DNA from: Boletus sp. NGJ
Taxonomy: Eukaryota > Basidiomycota > Agaricomycetes > Boletales > Boletaceae
DNA: 64,000 nucleotides
Reading direction: 5' to 3'
NCBI GenBank assembly: GCA_019096195.1
Contig: JAGTXK010000064.1
Location: 124,001 to 188,000 of the forward strand
Shown: piece by piece, positions 1,445 to 43,847 of the stretch
Layout: the number at the start of each line of letters is the position of its first letter
How positions within the stretch are numbered: position 1 is the first letter of the stretch
Translations under genes and position numbers: made by a program
Notes under the pieces: model-generated
Told to the model about the DNA's origin: nothing
Database searches by the model: none
Seen by the model: the letters and a program-made list of their open reading frames with translations, nothing else

Positions 1445-2547
1445 TCAACGATGTGCGGTTGGGCCAAAACGTGGGTTGGGCATCACCAGAGGGTGGTGGA
1501 GCCAAGGTTCGGGCATGGATATGGATAGATTGTCGGTTGGGCTACTGAGGGGACTCAGCATATGCTGCGCTGAGCAATGGGGGACGAAAGCGAGGTCGAA
1601 AGAGGCGGGAAGAGGTTGTATGCGCGGCGGTGTGTGCATGTGCGAGTGTGAGGGAGGACTCTGCATGCGGTGCTCAGGCACCACGTGCATAGAGGGCCGA
1701 CGGTTTCGCACCGGGGCATAACTCTTTGCAGGCGTGAAGTCGTCGGACGAGTTCTGAAGCAATCTCACTGCGTCCTGGATACGGTCTCTGAGCTCGTCGA
1801 TCCTCTGCGGCTGATAGTTGTCGTATCCCATCGGCCAACACAGGGTCTTTATCCAGTTCTCCATGATCTGAGGTGTCCATTGTACGCCGTTGAGCTTGGT
1901 ACCGTGGCGGAGCATGGCAACGATGTCTGTCGGGTCTTCTTTCTGGTAACGGACGAGCTTGAGGGCGACGCCCCAGAACATGGTTACGCTGATGAGATTG
2001 AGGCCTGGTGATGAGTAGATGGTGTTCATGTCAACGTTGTTGGGCTGCTTAGCATCATAATAGATGGGATCGTAGATATGACCCCGTGGGCTGTGAGGAG
2101 CGCAACGTCAGCGTGGGTACCTCGTGGCGATAAAGAGATGGACCGACTCTCGGGCAAACGGGAGTGCGACGTCGGGATCAGCGTTCATCCAGTCTGTGCT
2201 GGTGGACGTTTAGGACGGGGCGAGTCATGGGAAGGTGGGTTACTGAGCACGCACCCAACGCGAAATCTATGGGCGGTTGCGTTGATACAGGACTGGAGAC
2301 GATCCTCGGCATCGTGGACGCCCTTCTTTCTCCACTCGTGCCCGAACGCGCGTCTAATGTAGTCAACGTCCCGTGTGGTTCTGCGGGTGGAGGAGGTCGA
2401 GAGAAGGGGGTGGATGATCATGACGGCGCCACCATGAACGAAGAGGCGAATCTGGCAGCCAAAGACTTGGAGAATGTGTTGCTGGAGGTCGTCGAGGAGG
2501 TCGAGGAGCATTGTACGGGTGAGCTGGACGTCGTTGTGGGAGGGCAT
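1445..2547 (-). CDS. Nucleotidyltransferase-fold hypothetical protein
   Basis: The N-terminal 90 residues show a nucleotidyltransferase-like core: a helix, then LFVHGGAVMIIHP, then RTTRDVDYIRRAF, where glycine and aspartate positions fit the substrate/metal loop of NTase folds. An intron fits at 2199-2254 (gtgcgt...ccaccag) and joins to TDWMNADPDVALPFARE. The frame changes again near 2090-2120, which could be a very short intron of about 30 nt or an indel. The C-terminal half is proline- and histidine-rich and looks disordered. I chose the start at 2547 (MPSHNDVQL) because homology-like structure begins there; upstream in-frame codons run into the PMS1 promoter. It is divergent from PMS1 with about 180 bp between starts. 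The true substrate is unknown, and a degenerate catalytic site cannot be excluded. Confidence 0.5.
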
Positions 2548-2724
2548 CGTGTACGACGACGACGACGACGGCGCGGGGAAGAGGCGTCTGAGCCCTAGAA
2601 GGGCCTCGTGTTTATTATAATAATAAGAAGTGAGCTGCCATTCCAGTTCGAGTCTCGTCGTGTGTTTGACCCGCCACACGTTCAAGTTGGGTCACAGCCT
2701 GAGGAACTTCCCGCTGCGGGGAAC

Positions 2725-5700
2725 ATGAGCGAGTTTACCACCATCAGAGCAATCGATGCCCTCTCAGTCCACCGCATCACTTCCGGTCAGGTCGTTATTG
2801 ACCTACAAACAGCCGTCAAGGAGCTCGTCGAGAACAGCCTCGATGCAGGTGCAACATCCATAGGTACGTCCGAATCTGTGATCACGCCACTGCCTGCCCA
2901 CAGCGTTCCCAGAGGTCCGCTTTCAGAATTACGGGCTCAAAACAATTGAGGTCGTCGACAATGGGTGTGGAATCGCACCAAAGGATTACGACAACGTCGG
3001 TCAGTCCAACCGTCCAGCATTGTCGTCCTTTGTGCCCACATCGTGACAGCACTCAAGCACTATACCTCAAAGCTGTCGTCCTTTGAAGATCTATCGCGCG
3101 TCCTTACCTTTGGTTTCCGTGGAGAAGCCCTTTCGTCCCTTTGCGCCCTAACAGACGGTCTCACAATCACAACAGCAACTTCCTCTGACGCCCCCATGGG
3201 AACGATCATCGAGATGGACAGAAACGGCAAGGTGCGATCAAAATGTAAAATTGCCCGGCAGGTGTGCCATCCTGTTGTTCGCCCGTCAAAGGTGCTATTC
3301 ATAGACGCTTGGTACAGAGAGGAACGACAGTTATGATTTCGACCCTATTCAAGCCACTCCCTGTGCGTCGTAAAGAGTTCGAGAGAAACACGAAACGCGA
3401 GTTTCAAAAGGCACTGAACCTTTTGCACGCGTATGCCCTCGTGCCGTGTGCACTGGAGAACAGAGGGGTGAGGTTCACAGTCAGCAATCAGACTGAAGGC
3501 GGGTAGGTGTCCGCTTCACTTGGAACAGCGCATCTTCCTCACTCAGCACAGCCGCAAGGTCATCCAATTCAAAACAGACGGATCTTCTTCCATACGTACC
3601 TCCGTCCTTGCAGTATGGGGATCCAGAGCGCTCGAAAACATTGTTGATCTCGATCTGTCCTTTGACGTAGAGACCGAAAAGTCCGTTCTAAGACGTGTGG
3701 ACCCGGAAAACGACATGTGTGTACCACTTCCATCGCATACAGCCTGGGGCATCGACACAGGACAACTGGTCATATGCTAAACCAGGAACTAGTTCACTCG
3801 TGACCCCTATCAAGGTTCAGGGTCTAATCTCCAAGTTTTCCGTTGGAGCTGGGCGGACGAGTGTCGACCGGCAGTTCTTCTTTGTCAACGGGCGGCCATA
3901 CAATCCTGGGAAGGTGAGCACCTACGATGCTGTAGAATACATTGTTCCGTATCCTTGGCACTGTAGGTCCAGAAAGCCATCAACGAGGTGTACAGGACAT
4001 TCAGCGTCAACCAGTCTCCCTTTGTGATCGCCAACGTCATTTTACCTACAGGTGAGTCCTTTACAGATCTCCCATTCAGACTTTCTGCCTTTTTTAAAAA
4101 ACCAAATCGACGAATTCCGAGCTGATAGCGACGCATATAGGCGCATGTGACATCAACGTTAGCCCTGACAAACGTACCATCTTCTTGCATAGCGAAACCA
4201 ACCTCGTCCAAGCCCTCAAAGTACGTCCGTGCATCTGCCAAGCTCTGTTTATCGTCCCATTTCACACGCGTTCCCACAGACCGCACTCGAAACCGCGTTT
4301 TCGTCTGCCCGATTAACGTATGACGTGACTGCCCAGTCTTCGCAGACGCAGGTGGCACAGCAGCACACGCAACAAGCAAAGGGCCAGGGTAAGTCGCAAA
4401 CGCAGACACGGGAACGGGAGCGGGAAAGGGGTGCGAAACGGTTGCGGCATGAACCTACGTCCTCGACCCCGGATGATCCAGCAGAGCGTAGTCTTGAATC
4501 GCCACATCCACCTCAACCTGACGATACAAACAATACAGGCGGCGGGGACGAACCAATCGCGATGGGGGTTCCGCATCTCTTGTTAGAGGGCGGGGTTGGG
4601 GCTGATGGGGAGTCTGAATCGCAATCGGAGCACGAGCCTGAACCTACGCTCGTCGCGAAGCCTAGGCCGACCAGTAAAAATGGCGAAGGTAATGAAGGCG
4701 GTGCACACGGTGGGAAGAGAAAGGGCAATGGTGGGATGATCGATCGTCCGAGGAGCCGAGAGCCGTCCGAGCCGCTCTTCTTCCCCGAGTCTGACGAGGA
4801 AAGTGAGGGAAACGATACAACTGGGCGAGTTGACAAGGGGAAGAAGAAGGAAGGTGTTGAATCTGGACGGAGCGGAGACCAGCGTGCGTGTCCTCTGCAA
4901 CCCGTGCGCAGTGCAACCATTGCCACGAGTTCTGCTACGTCAACATCGGCGACGAACCTCCTCCATATCTCGCGGTCGTCGACCAGCATCCCTGATAAAC
5001 CCCGTTCCGTACAGACCGTCCTGAGCACGCGTGGTGCTGCCTGGAACCTCCGGAAGGACGATGATGGGGATGTGGAGGCTGTGAGGGAACGAAAGCGGGC
5101 GAGGCTATCCAGTGAGGGCGACCATGTGCGGGCGAGGAGGAAGAGTTTCAGGTCGAGCCTAAGTCAGTTCTTGAGCCGTGGGAGCAAGCCATTACCGGAC
5201 GAAGAGGAGGACAGCGGGAGCGGGAGCGATGGAGACGGAGACGGAGATGCTGGGATGCGGAAAGGAGGTAGCCCTAATGAAGAGGTTGATGAACTTGACG
5301 GAGAGGATGAAGGAGAAGAACATTCGGGAAAGGGGAGGAAGAAGAGACCCAGAGCAGGGAGTAATTCGTCTCAAGTGACAATGGTGGTACCCTCTGACGA
5401 CGAGCACGCGATGGACGTTGATGAGCCATTATCTACCATCATCAAACCTTCAGGCGTTGCTGCTCCTTCGATCCCACAAACTTCTGCAGGAGATGTCGTA
5501 GATCTAACAGAGGATGTCGAAACCTCCTCGGAAGACGACTGGGCATTTTCATCGACCTTGGTCGGGACCTACGTTCCCCCCGCAGGCAAGATAGTTGAAC
5601 CATCATCGAACTCAAGATCTACCCGCCCTCTCGCGGAGACAGACACCGATTTCGTGATGCTCCGCGTGAACATCGTCAGCATTGGGTCACACTACCTGGA

Positions 5701-6802
5701 CATTTACAACCACCTCTTATCTTCGTCGGAGCCCCTGTCAACCCCTCCGGTGCCGACACCGAGCTCGATCTTCCGTTCCGCCGTTTCGGCCTCCAATCTT
5801 GAAACCGCTGCAGAGGATACCATTGCCTCGGCCGCGCTCTCGCGGATCATTTCTAAAGCCGATTTCGAACACATGGCAGTCGTGGGGCAGTTCAATCTCG
5901 GATTTATCATCGTGCGGAAACGGAGCGATGGCATCCAAGGCGGAGGGGCGATGGACGACCTGTTCATTGTCGACCAGCACGCTGCTGACGAAAAGTGGAA
6001 TTTTGAGACGTTGCAGGAGAAGACAGTCATTGCGTCTCAGAGGCTCTTTCGGTGTGTTTCTCTTTACGTTTAACGTTTGATGTGTGGTCTTGTCCTGATA
6101 CTCTTTGTTACGATGTATGGTGGGTTGTTGTAGGCCACAAGAGTTGCAGTTCACAGCAGCCGACGAGATGCTTGCACTCGAGAACATCGACGTGTTGAAG
6201 CTGAACGGGTTTGAGCTAGAGCGGGCAGAGGAGCGAGAGATATTTGGAGATGAGAGAGAGGAAGGGTCAGAAGGTGCGAGGATGCGGTTACAGCTGATCG
6301 CGCAGCCGATGTCCAAGGATACAGTATTCGACATGAAGGGTAACGTACCTCCTCTTGTCCCGTCTCACTCCGCGTCTGCGGATGCTGATCGATTCATGTG
6401 ACAGACCTGGAAGAGCTCATCCATCTCATGCAAGACCGCCCGAAGGGAACGATGGTTCGATGTTCGAAAGCGCGGGCCATGTTTGCGATGCGTGCCTGTA
6501 GGCGGAGCGTGATGGTAGGCAAGGCACTTGATAAGACGCGGATGACGGCGGTACGTTGCTCGTGGATGTTCTCCTCCTTTCACCGCTCATGCCTATCGCT
6601 CGTTGAATGCAATCGGTGCGCCTTGTGGTTTCCGCATGAGTAGATCGTACGACACATGGGAACGATGGATCAACCATGGAACTGTCCGCATGGTCGGCCG
6701 ACCATGCGGCATCTCTCGGACCTGGCCTCTTTCGGACGGTATGCTCCGCCACAGCGCGTGATCGATTGGGAGGCGTATGGATCTAGATTGGAGGAGGCAT
6801 GA
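2725..6802 (+). CDS. PMS1: DNA mismatch repair endonuclease PMS1 (MutL homolog)
   Basis: This is the eukaryotic MutL-alpha subunit that pairs with MLH1 and nicks the daughter strand during mismatch repair in the nucleus. The GHKL ATPase motifs are clear: [18 protein letters not shown] and [11 protein letters not shown]. The MutL transducer fold follows ([26 protein letters not shown]). A central disordered linker of roughly 500 residues is rich in acidic and Lys/Arg blocks. The C-terminal dimer/endonuclease domain has [12 protein letters not shown], the DQHA(X)2E(X)4E metal site, plus ACRRS and CPHGRPT. Exons read by eye: 2725-2863, 2913-2999, 3050-3261, 3318-3502, 3552-about 3715, about 3742-3913, 3967-4051, 4141-4220, 4280-6051, 6134-6339, 6405-6550 and 6644-6802. 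The junction near 3715-3745 is uncertain. The product is about 1,135 aa and looks intact. Confidence 0.95.
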
Positions 6803-7111
6803 CCCACCAGTGTGCCCGTGCGTGTTTGTCCCGATATCGCAAGCGCCCGTTGACGGCTCACCCGCATTTACAGAAACACTCGGGAAGTCGCACCGCTGTC
6901 ACCAGCGTGATCACGCGGATGGGGCGAATCGTTGGCCGCTCTCAGGCCCCTACGCCCGGGGCTGTTATCTATCGTACACGCCATCTACAGATATCTCAGT
7001 ATATATAGTGCCGATGCTTAATCTAGTGTACTTTTCATCGCATACATCCCTCGTCGTTCTACACGGCACAACAACATTGTAAGAACTACTGACTCGTTTG
7101 TTGTAACAGGA
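6803..7111 (+). other. Intergenic, formamidase upstream region
   Basis: This is the space between the PMS1 stop and the formamidase start. It includes a tatatat stretch near 7000 and ends in a splice-acceptor-like ttgtaacag directly before the ATG, so a short 5' untranslated exon is possible. Confidence 0.4.
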
Positions 7112-8499
7112 TGTCGATCCACGCAGTGAAGCGCGAGCAAGCGAATCTGGCATGGGACAATAGGTATGTTTCCTCATCTGATCCCACCTCTTCTTCACTT
7201 GACCTCTCTGTAGCATCCCACCTGTCTTGACAGTCTCTTCCGGATCCACCGTCCACTTCTCTTGTCTCGATGCCTCCAATGGCCAACTCAACCCCGCCTC
7301 AACCGCCACTTCCGTTGCCACCATGAAAATCGAGCTCTGTGACCAAGTCAACGGGCCCGTATACGTTGAAGGCGCGACACCCGGGGACACCCTCCAGATC
7401 GACGTGCTCGACGTGCGAACGGCAGATTGGGGCTGGACGGCACTCATCCCCGGTTTTGGACTGTTGGCGGACGAGTTTCCAGAGCCTGCGCTCAAGATTT
7501 GGGATCTCACCGAGAACGCGGGCATGGGCGAGGTGCAACGGTACGCGTATTTGAGCAAGGAAAGAGGGATCCGCGTCCCGCTACGTCCGTTTGCGGGTGA
7601 GATGGGTCTCGCGAGGGGTGAACGAGGAGCATGGTCGACGATCCCGCCGTATGTGACGGGTGGGAATTTGGACACGAAGTATTTGACCGAGGGAGCGACG
7701 TTGTATTTGCCGATCGAGGTCGAGGGGGCATTGTTTGCCATTGGGGTACGTTTTTGGTTTCTCTCTTGGAGGGAGTGGTCGGTGGTGTGTTGAATCTTTG
7801 TGATGGGTGATGTGTTGCGCAGGATGGACATGCAGCGCAGGGCGATGGGGGTGAGTGAACGACAGTTCTTCGACCGGCCTCGCTGAACAGGTTATATGGG
7901 ATCGATTGGAAGAGGTCTGCGGTAGGTTGTCGCATGCGTGGGCGTTTCATTTTGCGTCGACTGACTATGGGCTGGCTAGGCACGGCCATCGAGACGCCGA
8001 TGGACGTTACCGTGCGGCTCACCGTGCGCAAGGACAAACCATACACCAAGGCCCCCCACTTTCATACTGTCACGCCACACGTAAATGCCGAAGAGTACTA
8101 TTGCACGACGGGCGTCAATACTGGTGAGCCCTCCTTGCGTGTCCATGTGCATGTTTGTGCGACGAGTCCGAATGTGCACGTTTAGACATTCGGGAGGCGA
8201 CGCGCTCGGCCGTTCGTAACATGATCACATACCTGGTGGCGGAACATGGGCTGGACCGCGTGGAGGCGTACATCCTTTGTAGCGTCGCGGGCGATTTGAA
8301 GATGCACGAGGTGGTGCGTGGACGCGTTCTTCTTGATTATACTGAGCGGGCGATTGATGATTGTTTTCACGAGTACTAGGTGGACATGCCGAATTACGTT
8401 GTACGTCTTTTCATTTTTGTTTCACAGCACGTACAAGGTATGCTCAACACTGGAAAGATCGGAATGATGATTCCCAAGTCCGTGCTTGGGGCTTTGTAA
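7112..8499 (+). CDS. Formamidase/acetamidase (FmdA/AmdA family)
   Basis: This is a cytosolic zinc- or metal-dependent amidohydrolase of the FmdA_AmdA family, releasing ammonia from formamide or acetamide for nitrogen use. Family hallmarks are visible: the GPVYVEGATPGDTLQIDVLDV segment (split here into its halves GPVYVEGATPG and DTLQIDVLDV), WSTIPPYVTGGNLDTKYL, the HAAQGDGEVCGTAIET active-site loop and a C-terminal CSVAGDLK. Exons read by eye: 7112-7163, 7214-7745, 7823 to about 7850, a 9-nt microexon 7913-7921, 7980-8123, 8186-8313, 8380 to about 8400, and about 8435-8499. The last junction (MPNYV to GMLNTG) is uncertain. The product is about 390 aa, normal for the family. Confidence 0.9.
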
Positions 8500-8989
8500 G
8501 CGAGAGGAAGGGATCTTTGCACGTTTCTCAAGGACGAGATGAGAGAATGCGTTGTCAGAAGACCGTTGGCTTGTGTACGTTTGTAAGAAATGACCATCTC
8601 CACTACCGTGGATCGTCACAAGCCTTAAGGAGGCGAAATTGACGATATCATAGTTCGACCATCTTGAAGTGCCAGACTGCCAGTGTGAGATCGCTGTGAG
8701 GTCGTAATGTTACTCACGAACACTGATCGCGAAACTGTCACTTCTGCGACTTCCATTAGGCTCTTCGAGCATGGATTTCAGTCTTCCACCCCAAACTCCA
8801 TCGAGACAATAGGAACAATATTGTACAACGATGGCAATTAGATAATACATACATTGAGCTCAAAAGACGAGGCATATGCATAAGTAAAATAAATATCCGA
8901 GTCACCTTCAAAGTACCGCCTCCACTTCATCAATGCCTCGCGGCGCTAGTGTTCGTCCTCTTGTCGACGTTTCTATCCAAATTCCTCCT
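8500..8989. other. Intergenic
   Basis: I see no coding, RNA or repeat feature here. This is the shared 3' flank of the formamidase (+) and the membrane-protein fragment (-). Confidence 0.4.
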
Positions 8990-9985
8990 TCAAACCTGAT
9001 GCGTATTATCTCCCAGCGGTACGAGTTGAATCGCCTCCGATTCGTTTGGATCCCCCTCCACCTGATCCTGTCCCGGGGCGACATCCGCGAATGCAATTGC
9101 AGACACAGCCGCGGTTTGACTCGCATTGGGTTGCGACAACGCACCAAACCCGGTATCAACCCCTTGCAAGCCGCGGTGGGAGTCACGGTCGTACATCTCT
9201 CGTACGCTGATGATGAACCGAGGCATCATGGGGCATAGCGTGATGCCAGAAAACATGTACATGAGGTACACCCAAGTGTTGTCGCCTTCGATTACATTGG
9301 AAATATTGAAAAAAATGTTCCTAACAGTTCAGAAGAAAACAAGCGAGTGGTTAGTTTGTCTGCATTGAAATACTCGAGAGTCGAGAGTAACTTGGTGGGT
9401 AGGAGAACGTGCGGGTGACAAGTGGAAACAGGAGAGAGGAGCAAACCGAGACGTACACAAGGAAATAAACAATGCCATCTCTCGCGAGTCGTTCCATGTA
9501 ACGGTTAGGCTGCCACTGCTTTGTTGCTTTGTACATGTTAACTGACTCCTTCAATGTTTGAGTGACAGCAAGAATTAAAAGTGCAGCACTGAGAACAAAT
9601 CGTGGGAGTTCATCATACACGTCCATCATGCCTGTGTTGCTCGCTGAAGCAGAGCAAGAAGATAAATCCATGACTTGGACAACTGTGACTGGGGCGACAG
9701 GTGGAAGGGCATCCTGGGTGAGATTGGAGTGACATGTGAAGTTTACCCAGGACATACATGAGAGATATTGACTGGTATGGTAGACCCCTGCAATAATGCA
9801 GGTAACAATGACCTGTGGCGCGTAAATGAACAGAAGGAGATAAAGGATCCATTTGGATCGATTCCAGGCTTCCTTAGATGAGGGGCACGAAAGTGATGCG
9901 GAAAACCACAGTTGCTTCTTCGAACGGTGATGATCAAGAAGTGTGTCGTGACATCGACTGGGCCACGATTCTGCTTCAGATTCAT
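8990..9985 (-). pseudogene. DUF6533-like multi-helix membrane protein, 5'-truncated
   Basis: On the minus strand, hydrophobic segments follow each other: RSKWILYLLLFIYAPQ with IVTCIIAG, then MSWVNFTCHS, then PRFVLSAALLILAVTQTLKE, then NRYMERLARDGIVYFLV. After an intron the frame continues NIFFNISNVIEGDNTWV and YLMYMFSGITLCPMMPRF and stops at 8990. This order and wording fit the C-terminal half of the large basidiomycete family of seven-helix DUF6533-type proteins, whose function is unknown. The family's N-terminal DUF6533 helices and a convincing start are not found upstream, where the sequence becomes the dispersed repeat, so I call it a partial or decayed gene. The soluble tail carries MYDRD and an acidic stretch. 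Confidence 0.55.
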
Positions 9986-10245
9986 CATGGGACTGCGACG
10001 GCCCAAGTCAGGATGAATTCGGAATGATATGATTGAGGCACTGTCTTACACCAAGCCCCAGCAACAGCAACATCTTCTCCCAACTCGTCGCAATGCCGAA
10101 AAACATCCGACCTTACCTCTGCCCTTCCGTACCATGACATGTCACCTCTGCCTCGTTCGTAGTGATCGCCAACTATCAAAGCGCCAAGTGTCTCGCTTTT
10201 CTCTCCATATGAGTCTCTTTGTCTTCGCCGGCGGTACTGAGTAAA
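9880..10245. repeat. Dispersed repeat, copy 1 of 3
   Basis: By eye this stretch resembles 33150-33600 and 36733-37290. Shared points in order are a ccgcatcactt-type motif, gcccaagtca, cagcaa.at, a tctgccctt block and tcggcggtactgag. Similarity is moderate and interrupted by small indels, so the copies are old. It directly adjoins the 5'-truncated DUF6533-like gene and may represent that family's former 5' region. Confidence 0.45.
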
Positions 10246-10985
10246 CCCCAGACTCTTCTGACGGTGGTTCTTGTTCCATGTTGTGGGAAACCCGGTGGCG
10301 ATTCCGTATTCTACCCCGTTTGCGGCCGCTAAAGTATATTCTCCATTTCCCTCTTTCAAGCCTTCTCACCTCCTCAATTATATGCACTATACCCAACTGT
10401 GACGTGAATCAGGAGTGGGGCTTCGTGTGAGTAGCGGGGTACTACCAAGTGACGGTATCCCATCGAAAGTGGGTGGCGCAGATAATCAGGAGAGGGAGAA
10501 AAACAAAGCTTCTCTTCCATCGTCAGTGAGACGCATCTTTAGGTGTTCGTGTTTAGATCCATTTACACGTCACTCGAGACTCCGTCCCAAACCCAACTCA
10601 GACCCTACCGAGGGGAACACGTGGCCAAGGTCGTCTTTGACGAGAAGGGTATGTCTGTACTACGCATGGTTATGTCCGCAATGACTTGTCGATAAGGGTG
10701 AGGGCGTGGTCAATCGCGCCATCTCCGAGGCAGAAGATGGTGGTCGCAATGGGTATTGGGTTAAAAAATGAAACATGATTGATGAGTGCAATCACGGTGT
10801 CCAAACATCGGACTAAATATGATGGTCACTGCACACAAAAAGAAGGCGCGACAGAACAGAGTGAAGAGCGGAATTAATGGAGCTTACGGGATATGGTCAC
10901 CAGCTGGCAGATGAAATATCGGAGACCTACAGGTACCGGGGATCATTGTTTCAGCTCTGTGCTGTGTGCAGTTCCTGAAACATTG
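10246..10985. other. Unassigned sequence
   Basis: There is no gene I can support. Short frames are present but show no family features and no splice logic. The stretch separates the dispersed repeat from the WD40-tail remnant. Confidence 0.35.
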
Positions 10986-37921: not shown

Positions 37922-38108
37922 CATACACAATGCAAAAATCAATATTTAGGACAGGTCTGAATGTGTGGCGTGACATCTGCACATTTAATCCCACCGCATT
38001 TTTTGCATGCCGCGCCCCGCCGCGCATTGTCTTTAGTGACCGCACTTGCCACCATCCCGCGAGTTTTTTAAATATCCATCGCAATTTTAATACAATGCAT
38101 TGCACATA
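37922..38108 (+). repeat. Left terminal inverted repeat of the transposon
   Basis: It is the reverse complement of 43465-43608 plus 43806-43847. It contains ggcgtgacatctgcacattt and cgcgagttttttaaatatcc. Confidence 0.8.
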
Positions 38109-38302
38109 CTGTACTTCTGCTCAAACCTTGACCTCATCGCTGTCAGTCCTGACGAATATATTGCTTCAAATGCTGACTTGATTCTCCCAGGCCAAAACCA
38201 TCTGATGGCTAGAGTATGTTAGTGATTGAGCACGACAAATTCATTCAAGTTGACTATGTACTACAGTCATGGTACTATAGACAAGGTCATTAGTGAAAGA
38301 CA

Positions 38303-40211
38303 TTAGAAGAAGGTGTTGTATTCATCTCTGAATGACATGAGTGTAAACTCAGAATCCCATGGATGAATGACACGAGGAGCATTAGGGGAATCGGGGAAAT
38401 GACGCCCACGAAGAAGAACATCATTTTCACTGATGGAGACACTGGTAGGGGCAGACGAAATCTGTGGGCGTGGGGGTGTCTTTATGAACAACGGTACAGC
38501 CTTCGAAGAGGCTAGAAAGATGCTTGAGTAAACATCTGACATAATGAAATTAACATACCATCCTTTCGCTTCTTGGCAGCAGGTGGGGATTGTAGTGGTG
38601 ATCGAAGCATGTGGGAACGCTTCCCTGAGTGTAAAATAAATTTTAGTACATATAGTGCAACTAAAAGTGAACAACTTCCCAGACTGCCAGGGGGGTGTTA
38701 TTGGATCCACATACCTCACCACACCCTTTCCCTTGCCCATCGGTTCACTGGCAGCAGGTCCGTCATAAAGGTTGCCATCCAGAGTCAAATCAAGCATAGA
38801 GCTCGTCAGTTTGATATCAAGATCACTTCCACCCAGACTATCAGTGGAGATACTGATAACATCATTGTCAGTAGCTTTGCCGTCATGAGAATCATCAGCT
38901 GGGGCAGCATCTGACTCGAACTCAGAGTCCGATCCAACAATGAGCGGCTGCTTATTCCATGAATCATAAACCTCGTCAGGAATGGTTTTCCTGGTCACTA
39001 AGAAAGTTATTGTCATAGGTTAAATACGTTGCGACAATTGCAATTGAACCACTTACCGAACCACAATGCGCTGTCTAAAATACTAGCCTTGCCACGACCC
39101 TTATTCTCAAATAGAGTAGACCCATTAGGTTCAGCAACCTCCACAATTGAGAAAGTATTTCCAGAACGAACAAGCACTAGCCAGTTAGGTCGTTGAGATG
39201 ATCGAGGCAACAGTGCAGATGCACATGTTGTTGGCTTCTGAGCCTCAGCAAGATAGGCAAAGACATGTGGAAACCACTCATGGACTTGCTTGTTCACCTC
39301 CACATATGACCATGCAGCATTGATAGCAATTCCTCCGTTGGGACCAGTTGTACTAATATAACACCCTCGATTTTTCATTGCCTGCACCTCGCTAGTGAAT
39401 GTTTTTCTGAAGGGAGCTCTCGATTGTTTCAAGTGTCCATCCTGCTAGCAAAATCATGAGCCATCAAGATTCAGAATGATTCAAACATTGGACGACTTAC
39501 ACTAATTCCATATACCACCATTGTGACAGAGCTGACATGAAAAATTGATGTATTGGCAGTTGTTTGGATGGACAAACTGCTGGGTAGACGTGAACGGTTG
39601 GATCCTCCTGTGCCAGCCTGAGTTGAAGCCTGTACAATGTATATCTAGTTTAGCAACGAGAGACGCACTTGAAAAAAAAAAAAAAAACATGAACCTTACT
39701 TTGCGAGATCCAGACACTGCACTGGCGTTGGCGAGAACAGCCAGGCATTTTTGTTTCCTAAGTCCAAGTGTTGCTATGGCCTCAGCTCGAGCCCCAGCTG
39801 CTGTCTGGGTAACAGTCGACAACAAGTATTTCGCCTTGGATTCCTGTTTCGTGAGGTTGGAAAAGATAGTCTGAACCTTGGAATTCATTGCTGGCATGCT
39901 GGCAGTGGTCGCATCTGACGCTGGCTGGGAAGACAGTGCAGCTTTGGTGGTGCTGGCGGAGGTAATGGATCGGGTTGTTGGACAGCACTGGCCTGGGGAT
40001 GCTTACTAATACCATGGTCGCGTTCATGACAGACAGGCTTTCCATCATCTGGCCAACGGAATTCCTCACATTCGCAAGTCCCACCATTTCCACGACAGAA
40101 TGTAGAGGGATCAATCTTCATACCGTCCGGTGAAACAAGGGAAGTAGGAGCAGCAGGGAACGAGCGTTGAGAGGAGTCCAGCGTCAGCAGAATGAGGAGG
40201 TAACTAAACAA
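38303..40211 (-). CDS. Transposon accessory protein, Cys-rich with NLS-like tail
   Basis: Several minus-strand exons join plausibly into one gene. The first has a Cys-rich knot, FCRGNGGTCECEEFRWPDDG followed by KPVCHERDHG. The next has a Ser/Thr/Ala linker and a helical TIFSNLTKQESKAKYLLS segment. Another starts after an intron with DGHLKQSRAPFRKTF and has a compact domain (NRGCYISTTGPNGGIAINAA, HVFAYLAEAQK). The last exons are acidic (VGSDSEFESDAAPADDSHDG), then PPAAKKRKDASSKAV, NLS-like, and end FRDEYNTFF. The function is unknown. Its place just after the transposase on the same strand inside the inverted repeats points to a role in transposition or its control. The start and some junctions are uncertain; possibly two genes. 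Confidence 0.45.
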
Positions 40212-40261
40212 TATAGTCCACAGTATCTAAAACCAATGCTCGAAGATACTTATATATCCTA

Positions 40262-42313
40262 CTACAATGCATGAGTCTCCATAAAGTGCGTCAAACAAAC
40301 AAGTGCCTGGCACCAAAGGCAGGCCCGTTCATACCAAATTCGCTCTGTGAGTGACACATCTAACCGCTTGGATTGCTGTCGGCCCAGCCGAATTGTCTCG
40401 AAGGCAGGGTAATGGCCTAGCTCCCATTCGGCTGGCGTAAGTCCAAACCCATCAGGAATAATATCTTGACCAATCGTGTCATACAACATCACAAAAAAAA
40501 TTGCCTCGTTGTCGGAATTAGTAAACGGAGTTCAGTGTGATGGAACACGCACATGGCGTCTTGGTCTATATGCTGCTGCTGCTGATTGACGAGCTTGGTT
40601 ACTTGGGCCACGAATGCATTGTCTTCATCACCGCTCGCTTCTTCGTCTGCTGGATGTCCAGCACCAGACTGATTACCTTTGCGCATAAGTGGCTTTCTGT
40701 AAACACCATAATGCTTATCAATGACGTCCACATTGACACCTTCACAGTCGTCTTGGTATATGCCAAATTGTGTTTGGCCAAGGAAGCGAAGATCCTATGT
40801 ATTATTAGAAGTTTGTAATGTTAGTGTACTGTTTTATGACGAGCCACTAACGCACCTTTGGGCATTTGTTGTTCGTATCAACGCCATTGATAGGATGGCA
40901 ATTCCATTCATGCTGAAAATCAAGACAATCCTTGTTGACAGCAGGGACGAAAAGCACATGCAACAACCACAGGTGGCTCGGATTCTGGGGGTTAAGCATA
41001 TGTCGATTTTCAAGGCGGGTGAAAAACGCACGCCAACGGCGAGCAAACCGCGTTCCGACTTTGACCCACAAATGCTCGATACGTGAGTTATGTGTAGACC
41101 TAAAACGTCAAATCACTTGATGTTACAAAATATATAAAGTTCAGACTTACGAGCCCCACATAAACGAGGCACGGTGAGAACCATTCTTCATGATCATGTA
41201 CGTTGCAACATCTATATTCTCACCTCCACGATCACCCCTAACCCGGGATGGTATTCCATACTCCATTACTGCATACTGGAAGAGATCAAAAACAGTCGCC
41301 GAGCGGTTATTATCACTTGCTCGTAGCGCCGTTATCTGAGAGTTATGGAGACCATAAATATTAGTATCATGCACAAATTATGATATTTCTTAACACACAC
41401 CGTACGACAAAATCCGTCAATGAAACCATGAATTACAATTCCCCAACGAATAAGTTTGTGGTGGCCGTCAACACGCCAGAGTGCATTTGGGCGCTTTACG
41501 TAGTATTTGCGTCGCCTCTTTATCTGATGGTTGCGGAGAACATGACCAATAGAGTCAACTCTACGAAGTGATTTGAGGACACAGACGATACTGCACGCGA
41601 TGACCGTGAGCTCGTAAATGGCCCATCACGTATCGTAAACCGGCCTCTGGATGTGCAGCCTTATATCGGATTACATGCTGATCAAGTTCCGTGTTACTCA
41701 TTATTGAGTATGCACGTTTGATGGCGTGTTTGTCCATGTATGAGCGAAGGGTGCTCCTATGCACCCCCAGGGTACATGCCAGCTCAGTCAGCTTGATTTG
41801 CCGGGAATCAGAGGTCGCCTCCCTGAGGTAAGCTAGATCGATGACTTTCTGGGGACGACCATGTTTCCCAGTGTGGACAACACTCACGGGCTGCGAGCAT
41901 CCGAACATATCCATCTGTCCTGTGAATTTTACCAGTTAATACGTCAATTACTACACTACGGAGTCAGTGCAGACTTACTGATTTTGCACATTCTCAGAGT
42001 AACATGAGAGCGCAAGGAACAGGTCGCCAAGTTGGGTGGTTACCATCTCCAGCCATTGTTCGATGTCTGTTGACGTGTAATCATGTTTGACTGCTAGAAG
42101 CAGTGGAATTGCATCACCCTCAATTGCGGCAAGGTGGAACTTGAGTCGAATCGGATCCATCTGGTCTTGGTCGAGAACTCGCAGAGCATGCTGGTAGATA
42201 TCGCTTAGAGCATTATGTGCCAACACAAGATTGGGAGGCTGTTCAACTTGTGGAAGCGGAGGCAGCGTTCGTGGTAACATGCGGAGGCATAAAGTTGGAG
42301 GCGTACGCAACAA
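40262..42313 (-). CDS. Transposase with integrase-core (DDE) domain
   Basis: This minus-strand, multi-exon gene encodes about 560-600 aa. The N-terminal part is helical (LVLAHNALSDIYQHALRVLD, DIEQWLEMVTTQLGDLFLAL). A DNA-binding region follows: KHGRPQKVIDLAYLREATSD, then an HTH-like KLTELACTLGVHRSTLRSY. The catalytic core has the three acidic residues in NALWRVDGHHKLIRWG (D), RVRGDRGGENIDVATYM (D) and NSRIERLWVEVGTQFARR (E). The C-terminal part has DGFGLTPAEWELGHYPAFET and ends ACLWCQALVCLTHFMETHAL. The layout matches the integrase-core proteins abundant in Agaricomycetes genomes. The junction near 40500-40545 is unclear. The catalytic triad is intact, so it may still be active. Confidence 0.75.
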
Positions 42314-42432
42314 CCAATAGTATTATGTCACCGTAGAGTTCTTGTTGTCGGCACTCTATATTGCCCTCACCGTCTGTGGCCTTCGACGTGCCATTCTCTC
42401 TGCTTGATCCATCCTAGTCAACCTAGCAAGTC
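42314..42432. promoter_or_regulatory. Shared divergent promoter of transposase and BTB gene
   Basis: Only 119 bp separate the two opposing start codons, so the two transcripts must share this region. A ctatattgccc TATA-like motif lies near 42356. Confidence 0.45.
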
Positions 42433-43422
42433 ATGTCTGCATCTATTCAACACCATCCTCTTTATTACTTCCCGAATGGGACACACATCTTTCGTGTATG
42501 TATCCACTTCCAGTCCAGAACCTATTTTCTAAAAACGTTCCACCAGGTTGAAAACACACTTTACAAGTTGCACAATGGCATCCTCTCAGCGCATTCCGCC
42601 CTCTTCAAGGACATGTTTACAGTAGGCGAAGCTGGGCCCTACCTCCCAGTCGAAGGGAAGACCGACACGGACCCCATTTTGCTAGAGAGCGAACAACAAG
42701 CTGTCTTTGACTTATTTCTCGATCATATCAATGGCCGGTGGGTATTTACTATTTACTATCGTGTGCATTCTCCCTTGACAGAGCTCTGTAGTTCACGCAG
42801 TGTGGGCTCGGACGGTGCTTACTCTCACGAACAACTGTGGAACCTGCTGCGATTCGCAGACAAGTACCGCTGCCCAATGACACGACTCTTTGTTATCGAT
42901 CATATTTGGGATGCAAGGTACTCCTATCACCCCACAGAACTCGTACAGCTAGGCTCTCAATTCAAGGTCCCCAAGCTCTTCATACGTGGATTCAAGCTTC
43001 TTCTCGACATCCCACTCAAACAGATCAGAAAGGAACAACGTCTGCGAATGGGCAATGATGTATTCATTGCATTGACATATGCTAAATCCCTGCTCGAGGA
43101 GCATACTCGCCTTGTTGCCTGTGAGGAACCTGTGATCCTCACCCACACAGATGATTGTCCAGACCCACTCGCATGTCAAGAGGACTGGCACAACGTCTGG
43201 TGGAATGGAATGGGCCGGTTTTTGCTTGACGCGAGAAATCCGCAACCGTTTGCTGACGCTGTTAAGCGTTTTCGGGAGCTGCAGTTTGGTCGCATGGGTA
43301 CTGGCTGCGTGAAGCTAATGTTCCAGACCCTCGATCGTGGGGCTGGCTTTCGGCATGCCGACGTATTCATTGCTGATATTTGTAGTGGACTTGTAGATGA
43401 ACTCCATTTGGCCGATTCCTAA
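42433..43422 (+). CDS. BTB/POZ domain protein inside the transposon
   Basis: The N-terminus reads HHPLYYFPNGTHIFR, then after an intron (about 42500-42546) VENTLYKLHNGILSAHSALF and KDMF, the typical fungal BTB fold opening. It continues DPILLESEQQAVFDLFLDHI, and a second intron near 42740-42795 brings YSHEQLWNLLRFADKYRCPM, the BTB-BACK-like region. Tail residues include DPLACQEDWHNVWW. BTB domains dimerise and often recruit cullin-3 ubiquitin ligases; in fungi most family members are uncharacterised. It lies within the inverted repeats, divergent from the transposase with 119 bp between the two starts, so it is either cargo or an integral gene of the element. The frame is intact, with stop at 43420-43422. 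Confidence 0.8.
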   Translation: MSASIQHHPLYYFPNGTHIFRVCIHFQSRTYFLKTFHQVENTLYKLHNGILSAHSALFKDMFTVGEAGPYLPVEGKTDTDPILLESEQQAVFDLFLDHINGRWVFTIYYRVHSPLTELCSSRSVGSDGAYSHEQLWNLLRFADKYRCPMTRLFVIDHIWDARYSYHPTELVQLGSQFKVPKLFIRGFKLLLDIPLKQIRKEQRLRMGNDVFIALTYAKSLLEEHTRLVACEEPVILTHTDDCPDPLACQEDWHNVWWNGMGRFLLDARNPQPFADAVKRFRELQFGRMGTGCVKLMFQTLDRGAGFRHADVFIADICSGLVDELHLADS

Positions 43423-43464
43423 TACTACTATGCCTCTGCCACCGTGGTGTCCCCCTCTCTGTAC

Positions 43465-43847
43465 TATGTGCAATGCATTGTACTAAAATTGCGACGGATA
43501 TTTAAAAAACTCGCGGGATGGTGGCAAGTGCGGTCACTAAAGACAATGCAGCGGCGGGGCGCGGCATGCAAAAAATGCGGTGGGATTAAATGTGCAGATG
43601 TCACGCCAGATGAATGTTGTATGAAATGGGAAAATTGCAGTTAAAATTTAGTCTTGACATTTTGTGGCACTTAAACTTGAAGTTTAGACATAGATTAGGC
43701 AAAAGCTTGAAGTTTAGATATAGATTAGGCAAACTTTTCAAGTTTAAGTGCTGTGAAAATGTCAAGCTTAAACTTTAACTGCAATCTTCAAAGACATTTC
43801 ATACAACATTCAGACCTATCGTAAATATTGGTTTTTGTGTTGTGATA
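43465..43847 (-). repeat. Right terminal inverted repeat, interrupted
   Basis: 43465-43608 and 43806-43847 together match the left arm in reverse. The interruption is the MITE. Confidence 0.8.
43609..43806. mobile_element. MITE nested in the right inverted repeat
   Basis: This element of about 196 bp begins tgaatgttgtatgaaatg and ends with its reverse complement catttcatacaacattca. The arms extend further inward (gcagttaaa... / ...tttaactgc; ttgacattttgtggcactta / taagtgctgtgaaaatgtcaa, with mismatches), so it can fold into one long hairpin. Its centre has a 30-bp unit, cttgaagtttaga.atagat, repeated twice in direct orientation. It has no coding capacity. Confidence 0.75.

Follow-up and report, generated by a model that had tools for sequence, protein, structure and literature searches.

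The closest described relatives of the element reported here are the IS3EU transposons, for which the main text of Kojima and Bao 2023 (PMC10045372) gives TA..TA ends, usually 6-bp duplications, and an integrase-like DDE core. For the TET+ IS3EU elements of rust fungi, the main text of Kojima 2025 (PMC12730594) gives the termini as TAYGG..CCRTA, and all TET+ families presented there carry a TET/JBP gene between the transposase gene and an oppositely oriented alpha-kinase gene. Ubiquitin-adaptor-type domains are also found joined to transposon proteins, and the relevant passages of PMC12062965 and PMC3212892 list an F-box with Zisupton, BTB with an integrase zinc-binding domain (ZBTB11-type), and BTB with Crypton (KCTD1). 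Here we describe an element in a 64,000-nucleotide stretch of the Boletus sp. NGJ genome (assembly GCA_019096195.1, contig JAGTXK010000064.1, positions 124,001 to 188,000 of the forward strand), which we call the window and number from its first letter. On balance, we read this element as a cut-and-paste transposon of the IS3EU/GingerRoot type with three genes of its own, encoding a transposase, a BTB protein, and a Cys-rich accessory protein, and our tentative first choice for the role of the BTB protein is a CUL3-type adaptor or scaffold that would act against silencing. The observations behind this reading are the ends, the 6-bp duplication, an empty site, further copies, the gene content, the gene order in divergent families, and agreeing trees.

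The element can be placed at 37964-43610 with a duplication of TGAATG because empty copies of its insertion site align across the junction. The site is itself a miniature inverted-repeat transposable element (MITE) of about 266 bp, which surrounds the transposon in the window and occurs at 20 other places in the genome with 81-96% identity, along with four short weaker matches. Once the element and one TGAATG are removed, the joined flanks can be aligned to all four of the other MITE copies examined, with no gap where they meet; three of these have TGAATG once at the empty site, and the fourth has TGAAGG, with one base changed. The duplication in the window is perfect (37958-37963 and 43611-43616, no strand). 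Alignment to the other MITE copies delimits a left MITE piece at 37925-37963 and a right piece at 43617-43844, both on the plus strand. The MITE also aligns to its own reverse at about 72-76%.

An earlier note on this DNA had described 187-bp inverted arms and outer coordinates of 37922-43847. Long inverted arms are indeed present, but each proved to be two nested things, a transposon repeat of about 145 bp and a MITE end, and the empty-site alignment moves the boundaries inward to those given above. We rejected the outer 39-bp arms (37926-37964 and 43806-43844) as transposon sequence, as they are the ends of the MITE. Removing the MITE-derived outer parts leaves an inverted repeat core at 37966-38108 and 43465-43608 (143 and 144 nt, 97.9% identity), which becomes a repeat of about 145 bp once the outermost two bases, which belong to the IS3EU terminus, are counted in (37964-38108 on the plus strand and 43465-43610 on the minus strand). 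The search of the genome with the arm that the note had proposed was run with the 143/144-nt arm and found seven further places at 94-100% identity and one 73-bp partial match, a recurrence far beyond chance.

We file the element under the IS3EU/GingerRoot type because of its ends, its 6-bp duplication, and a transposase matching the integrase-core DDE family PF24764, all of which are sequence features. The ends are TATGG..CCATA in four of the five copies checked (those we label C35, C124, C114, and C102a), and the window copy has TGTGG..CCAGA, that is, TG..GA in place of TA..TA. Ginger1 and Ginger2 are recognized by 4- or 5-bp duplications, whereas the duplication here is 6 bp with all six bases matching in three of the five copies (window, C35, and C102a), 5 bp in C114, and not seen in C124. 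TA itself was considered as the target duplication and rejected, since 6-bp duplications outside the TA, and the IS3EU termini as published, give the better fit.

The three genes that the earlier note had placed between the arms are all present. The transposase gene occupies 40259-42280 on the minus strand (several exons, ends approximate), and PF24764 (rva_4) matches three of its exon pieces with scores above the cut-off and E values of 2e-14 to 5e-18. In the alignment, its D, D, and E motifs are retained in most lineages, with the first D altered in C31 and the second in C42. Relative to C35, C124, and C114, the window transposase has two single-base insertions in coding exons that break its frame. 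The BTB gene lies on the plus strand at 42433-43422, head to head with the transposase gene, and has an open frame of about 293 codons in three modelled exons (42433-42495, 42547-42737, and 42792-43422). The 152 bp between the two start codons (42281-42432, no strand) are a candidate shared promoter, given the head-to-head layout. The accessory gene is found at 38303-40121 on the minus strand (several exons, ends approximate). The N terminus of its product has a Cys/His cluster, which in C35 and relatives reads C-x6-C-x-C ... C-x2-C-x-H-x4-H and in the window copy has one Cys altered. It had no match in Pfam, and a structure model of a piece of it was unusable (mean pLDDT 38). Accessory homologues are present at the same position in the divergent regions C121, C42, and C31, and short pieces of it in C102a and C107.

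Sibling copies elsewhere in the genome carry the same content. The C35 copy is 98.9% identical to the window element over its full length, with ends TATGG..CCATA and a 6-bp duplication of GCCTTT, and the copies C124 and C114 have the same ends and contain nested inserts. All four sibling copies that retain the right half (window, C35, C124, and C114) hold the BTB gene; two others are uninformative on its presence, as the C73 copy runs into a contig end and the C31 copy has the left part only. The earlier note had named copies with the transposase but never the BTB gene as grounds for dropping its proposal, and among the copies that retain the right half none of this kind was found. On its other ground, a BTB gene at the same locus in the absence of the element, the site bears only indirectly: the four other MITE copies examined have it without any BTB gene. 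The BTB frame is open in the window, C35, and C124, and the C35 transposase contains one stop codon.

Three further observations concern these copies. The insert in C124, of about 6 kb (L010, about local 1449-7438), has the ends AGTGATGTT..AACATCACT, with a direct repeat of 9 bp, CTCATGGAT, and probably represents a further DNA transposon nested there. The insert in C114, of about 7.4 kb (L012/L013, local 3030-10454 of the joined stretch), has terminal direct repeats with 260- and 225-bp matches of 94-97% identity and looks like a long terminal repeat (LTR) element. C124:17000-18603 and C31:264807-266410, covering left flank and left end, are 99.6% identical and represent a duplicated segment or a haplotype copy in the assembly.

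The pairing of BTB and transposase extends well beyond this family. Searching the genome with the BTB protein gave at least 20 matches, which we grouped by hand into 13 places, and searching with PF24764 gave at least 35, grouped by hand into 16 places. A BTB match lies no more than 3 kb from the transposase at 9 of the 16 PF24764 places, within 9 kb across the nested insert at C114, and at 15 kb at C37. As a control, the Pfam BTB model gave at least 17 genomic matches, 16 of which lie at no transposase place and one at C102a (C102:667897); this control list is a lower bound because it missed the window's own BTB. Five divergent families (C102a, C107, C121, C31, and C42) have a BTB protein 29-47% identical to that of the window. 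Outside the window family, six regions were read that include a transposase N terminus; five have transposase and BTB head to head, with all or part of the accessory gene behind the transposase, and the sixth is C107:342k. The C102a element (C102:661706-668913) has ends TATGG..CCATA, repeats of about 105 bp that are 75% identical, a perfect CCCAAT duplication, and a BTB protein 36% identical to that of the window over 268 aligned residues. C121, C42, and C31 have long similar inverted arms with no target duplication identified, and no arms were found at C107. In viral contigs, a transposase piece gave one 26-residue match (L078), where the element proteins scored no better than E 0.016, and BTB exon 3 gave no match.

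Such a pairing could in principle be a target-site effect, with the elements inserting preferentially beside host BTB genes. We found no support for this explanation and consider it very improbable, given that the BTB gene lies inside the inverted repeats and target duplication in the window, C35, and C102a copies, and that the window target is a MITE of which all four other copies examined have no BTB gene at the site.

The two genes also share a history. Across six lineages, pairwise identities of BTB and transposase correlate with r 0.95, a value reached in 3 of 720 label permutations, and those of accessory protein and transposase with r 0.90 (1 of 720), with just 30-73 accessory residues where C102a or C107 is compared. 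This six-lineage comparison was made without C44, C37, and C102b, which have little or no transposase. The BTB and transposase trees have the same topology, (C102a,C107),(window,(C31,(C121,C42))), with support of 83/84 for the C121-C42 fork of the BTB tree and 97 or more for the other forks. In a tree of genomic BTBs, made without C37, C102b, and 3 of the 16 other BTB places (those under 150 aa), the seven element-clade BTBs, C44 included, fall on one side of a branch from 13 other genomic BTBs (support 91/95); L070, another BTB on a long branch, adjoins the element clade (94/90).

The earlier note had offered the BTB gene as either cargo or an integral part of the element, and the divergent families and agreeing trees bear out the stronger form: because divergent families keep the gene order, the trees agree, and the element BTBs form one clade, the BTB gene is integral to the element and not a recent capture. 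The same pattern suggests that BTB and transposase have moved together in several distinct families of the element and that the transposon needs the BTB gene, perhaps for handling its host. Were the gene instead an ordinary host BTB picked up recently by one family, with no role in the element, it would fit that BTB genes are numerous in fungi and that the window-family BTBs have no measurable constraint at their short distance. We consider such recent cargo improbable, as it leaves aside the BTB gene at the same position in five divergent regions with agreeing trees, the branch that sets element BTBs apart from 13 other genomic BTBs, and the C102a element with its own ends, duplication, and BTB gene. 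Between the window and C44, the codons of BTB exon 3 give a dN/dS of about 0.16 over 125 codons, with 57% of synonymous sites different.

The copies also record how the host treats them. Of the 157 changes private to C114, 140 are C:G to T:A, and 105 of these are at CpG; 26% of its CpGs were hit vs 1-3% of other C sites. CpG observed/expected ratios are 0.06-0.27 in C107:13.5-22.5 kb, C121, C31:38.5-48 kb, C42, and C102:138-144 kb (C102b), and 0.99 in the whole window; with so little CpG left, these old transposons of the host fungus are strongly CpG-decayed. As a result of this decay, the distances of these regions are inflated in both BTB and transposase. The changes in C114 suggest methylation, and thereby mutation, of these copies by the host. 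DNA methylase matches and cullin matches are present in the genome. Because the copies decay by C-to-T change at CpG, they are under silencing pressure; the decay speaks for this pressure and not for the BTB protein as an answer to it.

Several observations weigh against our reading and were considered together. All of the evidence comes from one genome. At the level of single copies, the 5-bp duplication of C114 and the absence of a recognized one at C124 depart from the pattern, C114 has stops in both its BTB gene (three) and its transposase gene, and the accessory gene of C124 contains stops. The BTB genes of the window family differ too little for selection to be seen, and the changes between window, C35, and C124 are all non-synonymous (window-C35, four vs no synonymous; window-C124, one vs none). 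Four of the five divergent full-layout regions are CpG-decayed. The pairing has exceptions in both directions, with 5 of the 16 PF24764 places lacking a BTB match and two BTB matches, C44 and C31:144k, lacking a transposase, and C107:342k has an N-terminal part of the transposase with a mere first-exon-like BTB remnant. Among the BTB-less places, C94/C120 and C81/C122 are transposase fragments, near-identical within each of the two pairs, C120 being under the Pfam cut-off. At C44 (L049, 316.7-317.6 kb), an element-clade BTB with frame breaks and normal CpG was seen, and the 6 kb read there contained no match to the transposase.

The domain assignment adds to these points. The BTB/POZ gene of the earlier note stands as a BTB-like gene with a borderline score, as the spliced window protein matches Pfam BTB (PF00651) with E 6e-4 and 20.4 bits, just short of the 20.5 set as the cut-off. 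The predicted fold is weak (mean pLDDT 60), with residues 1-93, the BTB part, nearly all below 50, and the best match of this model among PDB structures, KLHL11 BTB-BACK with Cul3, has a non-significant E of 0.35; a sequence search of PDB reached at best E 0.24. The BTB homologue of C102a passes the Pfam cut-off with 25.0 bits. The putative BTB identity thus draws on the borderline Pfam score, the pass by C102a, and the non-significant KLHL11 BTB-BACK resemblance of the weak model.

With these points in mind, the anatomy of the element suggests how it may work. The transposase would bind the inverted repeats of about 145 bp, excise the element, and join it to target sites with a 6-bp stagger, and BTB and transposase would both be driven by one promoter of about 150 bp that they share. 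As the transposase frame of the window copy is broken, this copy would need the help of a sibling copy, its own BTB frame being open. Tentatively, the BTB protein may work in trans, where, as an adaptor or scaffold of the CUL3 type, it would either remove a silencing factor of the host or block it; it would then fill the slot held by alpha-kinase and TET/JBP in the rust IS3EU elements. Second proteins act in some other DNA transposons, such as the Myb-like protein of Harbinger, and BTB domains are multimerization domains, so that the same element could instead use its BTB protein as a transposition cofactor that dimerizes or tethers the transposase, pairs the ends, or aids nuclear entry. The head-to-head layout and the co-inheritance with the transposase would suit a cofactor as well. 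We rank this role second, as a possible but less probable one, since no Pfam DNA-binding domain was found in the BTB protein and since rust TET+ IS3EU elements, according to the main text of PMC12730594, have an enzyme, an alpha-kinase, encoded opposite their transposase. A CUL3-type adaptor against silencing seems to us the most likely role.

A much broader version of the adaptor reading would hold that a whole IS3EU lineage of Agaricomycetes encodes its own BTB-type CUL3 adaptor as a transposon-borne counter-defence, by which a factor for silencing or DNA methylation in the host is destroyed or diverted, and that part of the large uncharacterized mushroom BTB families descends from such elements. 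We regard this as speculative and rather unlikely.

For the element itself, a BTB gene tied to a single transposase lineage offers a concrete case, open to testing, of a DNA transposon possibly acting on host ubiquitin ligase or silencing; the TET/JBP genes found in other transposons of fungi are a parallel. We would also like to caution that transposon genes, and not host genes, are behind some of the fungal gene models that go by the name of BTB or "integrase core".

Our literature search, with most subscription journals and Repbase Reports outside its scope, listed no paper that was seen to describe a BTB gene carried by a DNA transposon; within this scope the BTB gene in such an element would be new, the IS3EU type itself being already known. 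A search of the genome for alpha-kinase gave no match, and control genomes gave none either, so its absence is not established; TET/JBP gave 23 genomic matches, none at the element places read.

Compared with the described systems, the element described here shares TA..TA termini (in four of the five copies checked), 6-bp duplications, and an integrase-like DDE core with the IS3EU/GingerRoot elements of PMC10045372, and differs from them in its BTB gene, the term "BTB" being absent from the main text of that paper. With the rust and Tuber IS3EU elements of PMC12730594, going by its main text, it has in common the 6-bp duplication, the TAYGG..CCRTA termini, repeats longer than 30 bp, several genes, and a second gene opposite the transposase; the opposite slot is held by an alpha-kinase there and by BTB here, and "BTB" and "POZ" are absent from that main text. 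Similar to the ZBTB11 and KCTD1 systems, as presented in the relevant passages of their sources, it places an interaction domain (BTB or F-box) alongside transposon domains. In those systems, however, the domains are joined in host fusion genes, whereas here a separate BTB gene lies inside a mobile element.

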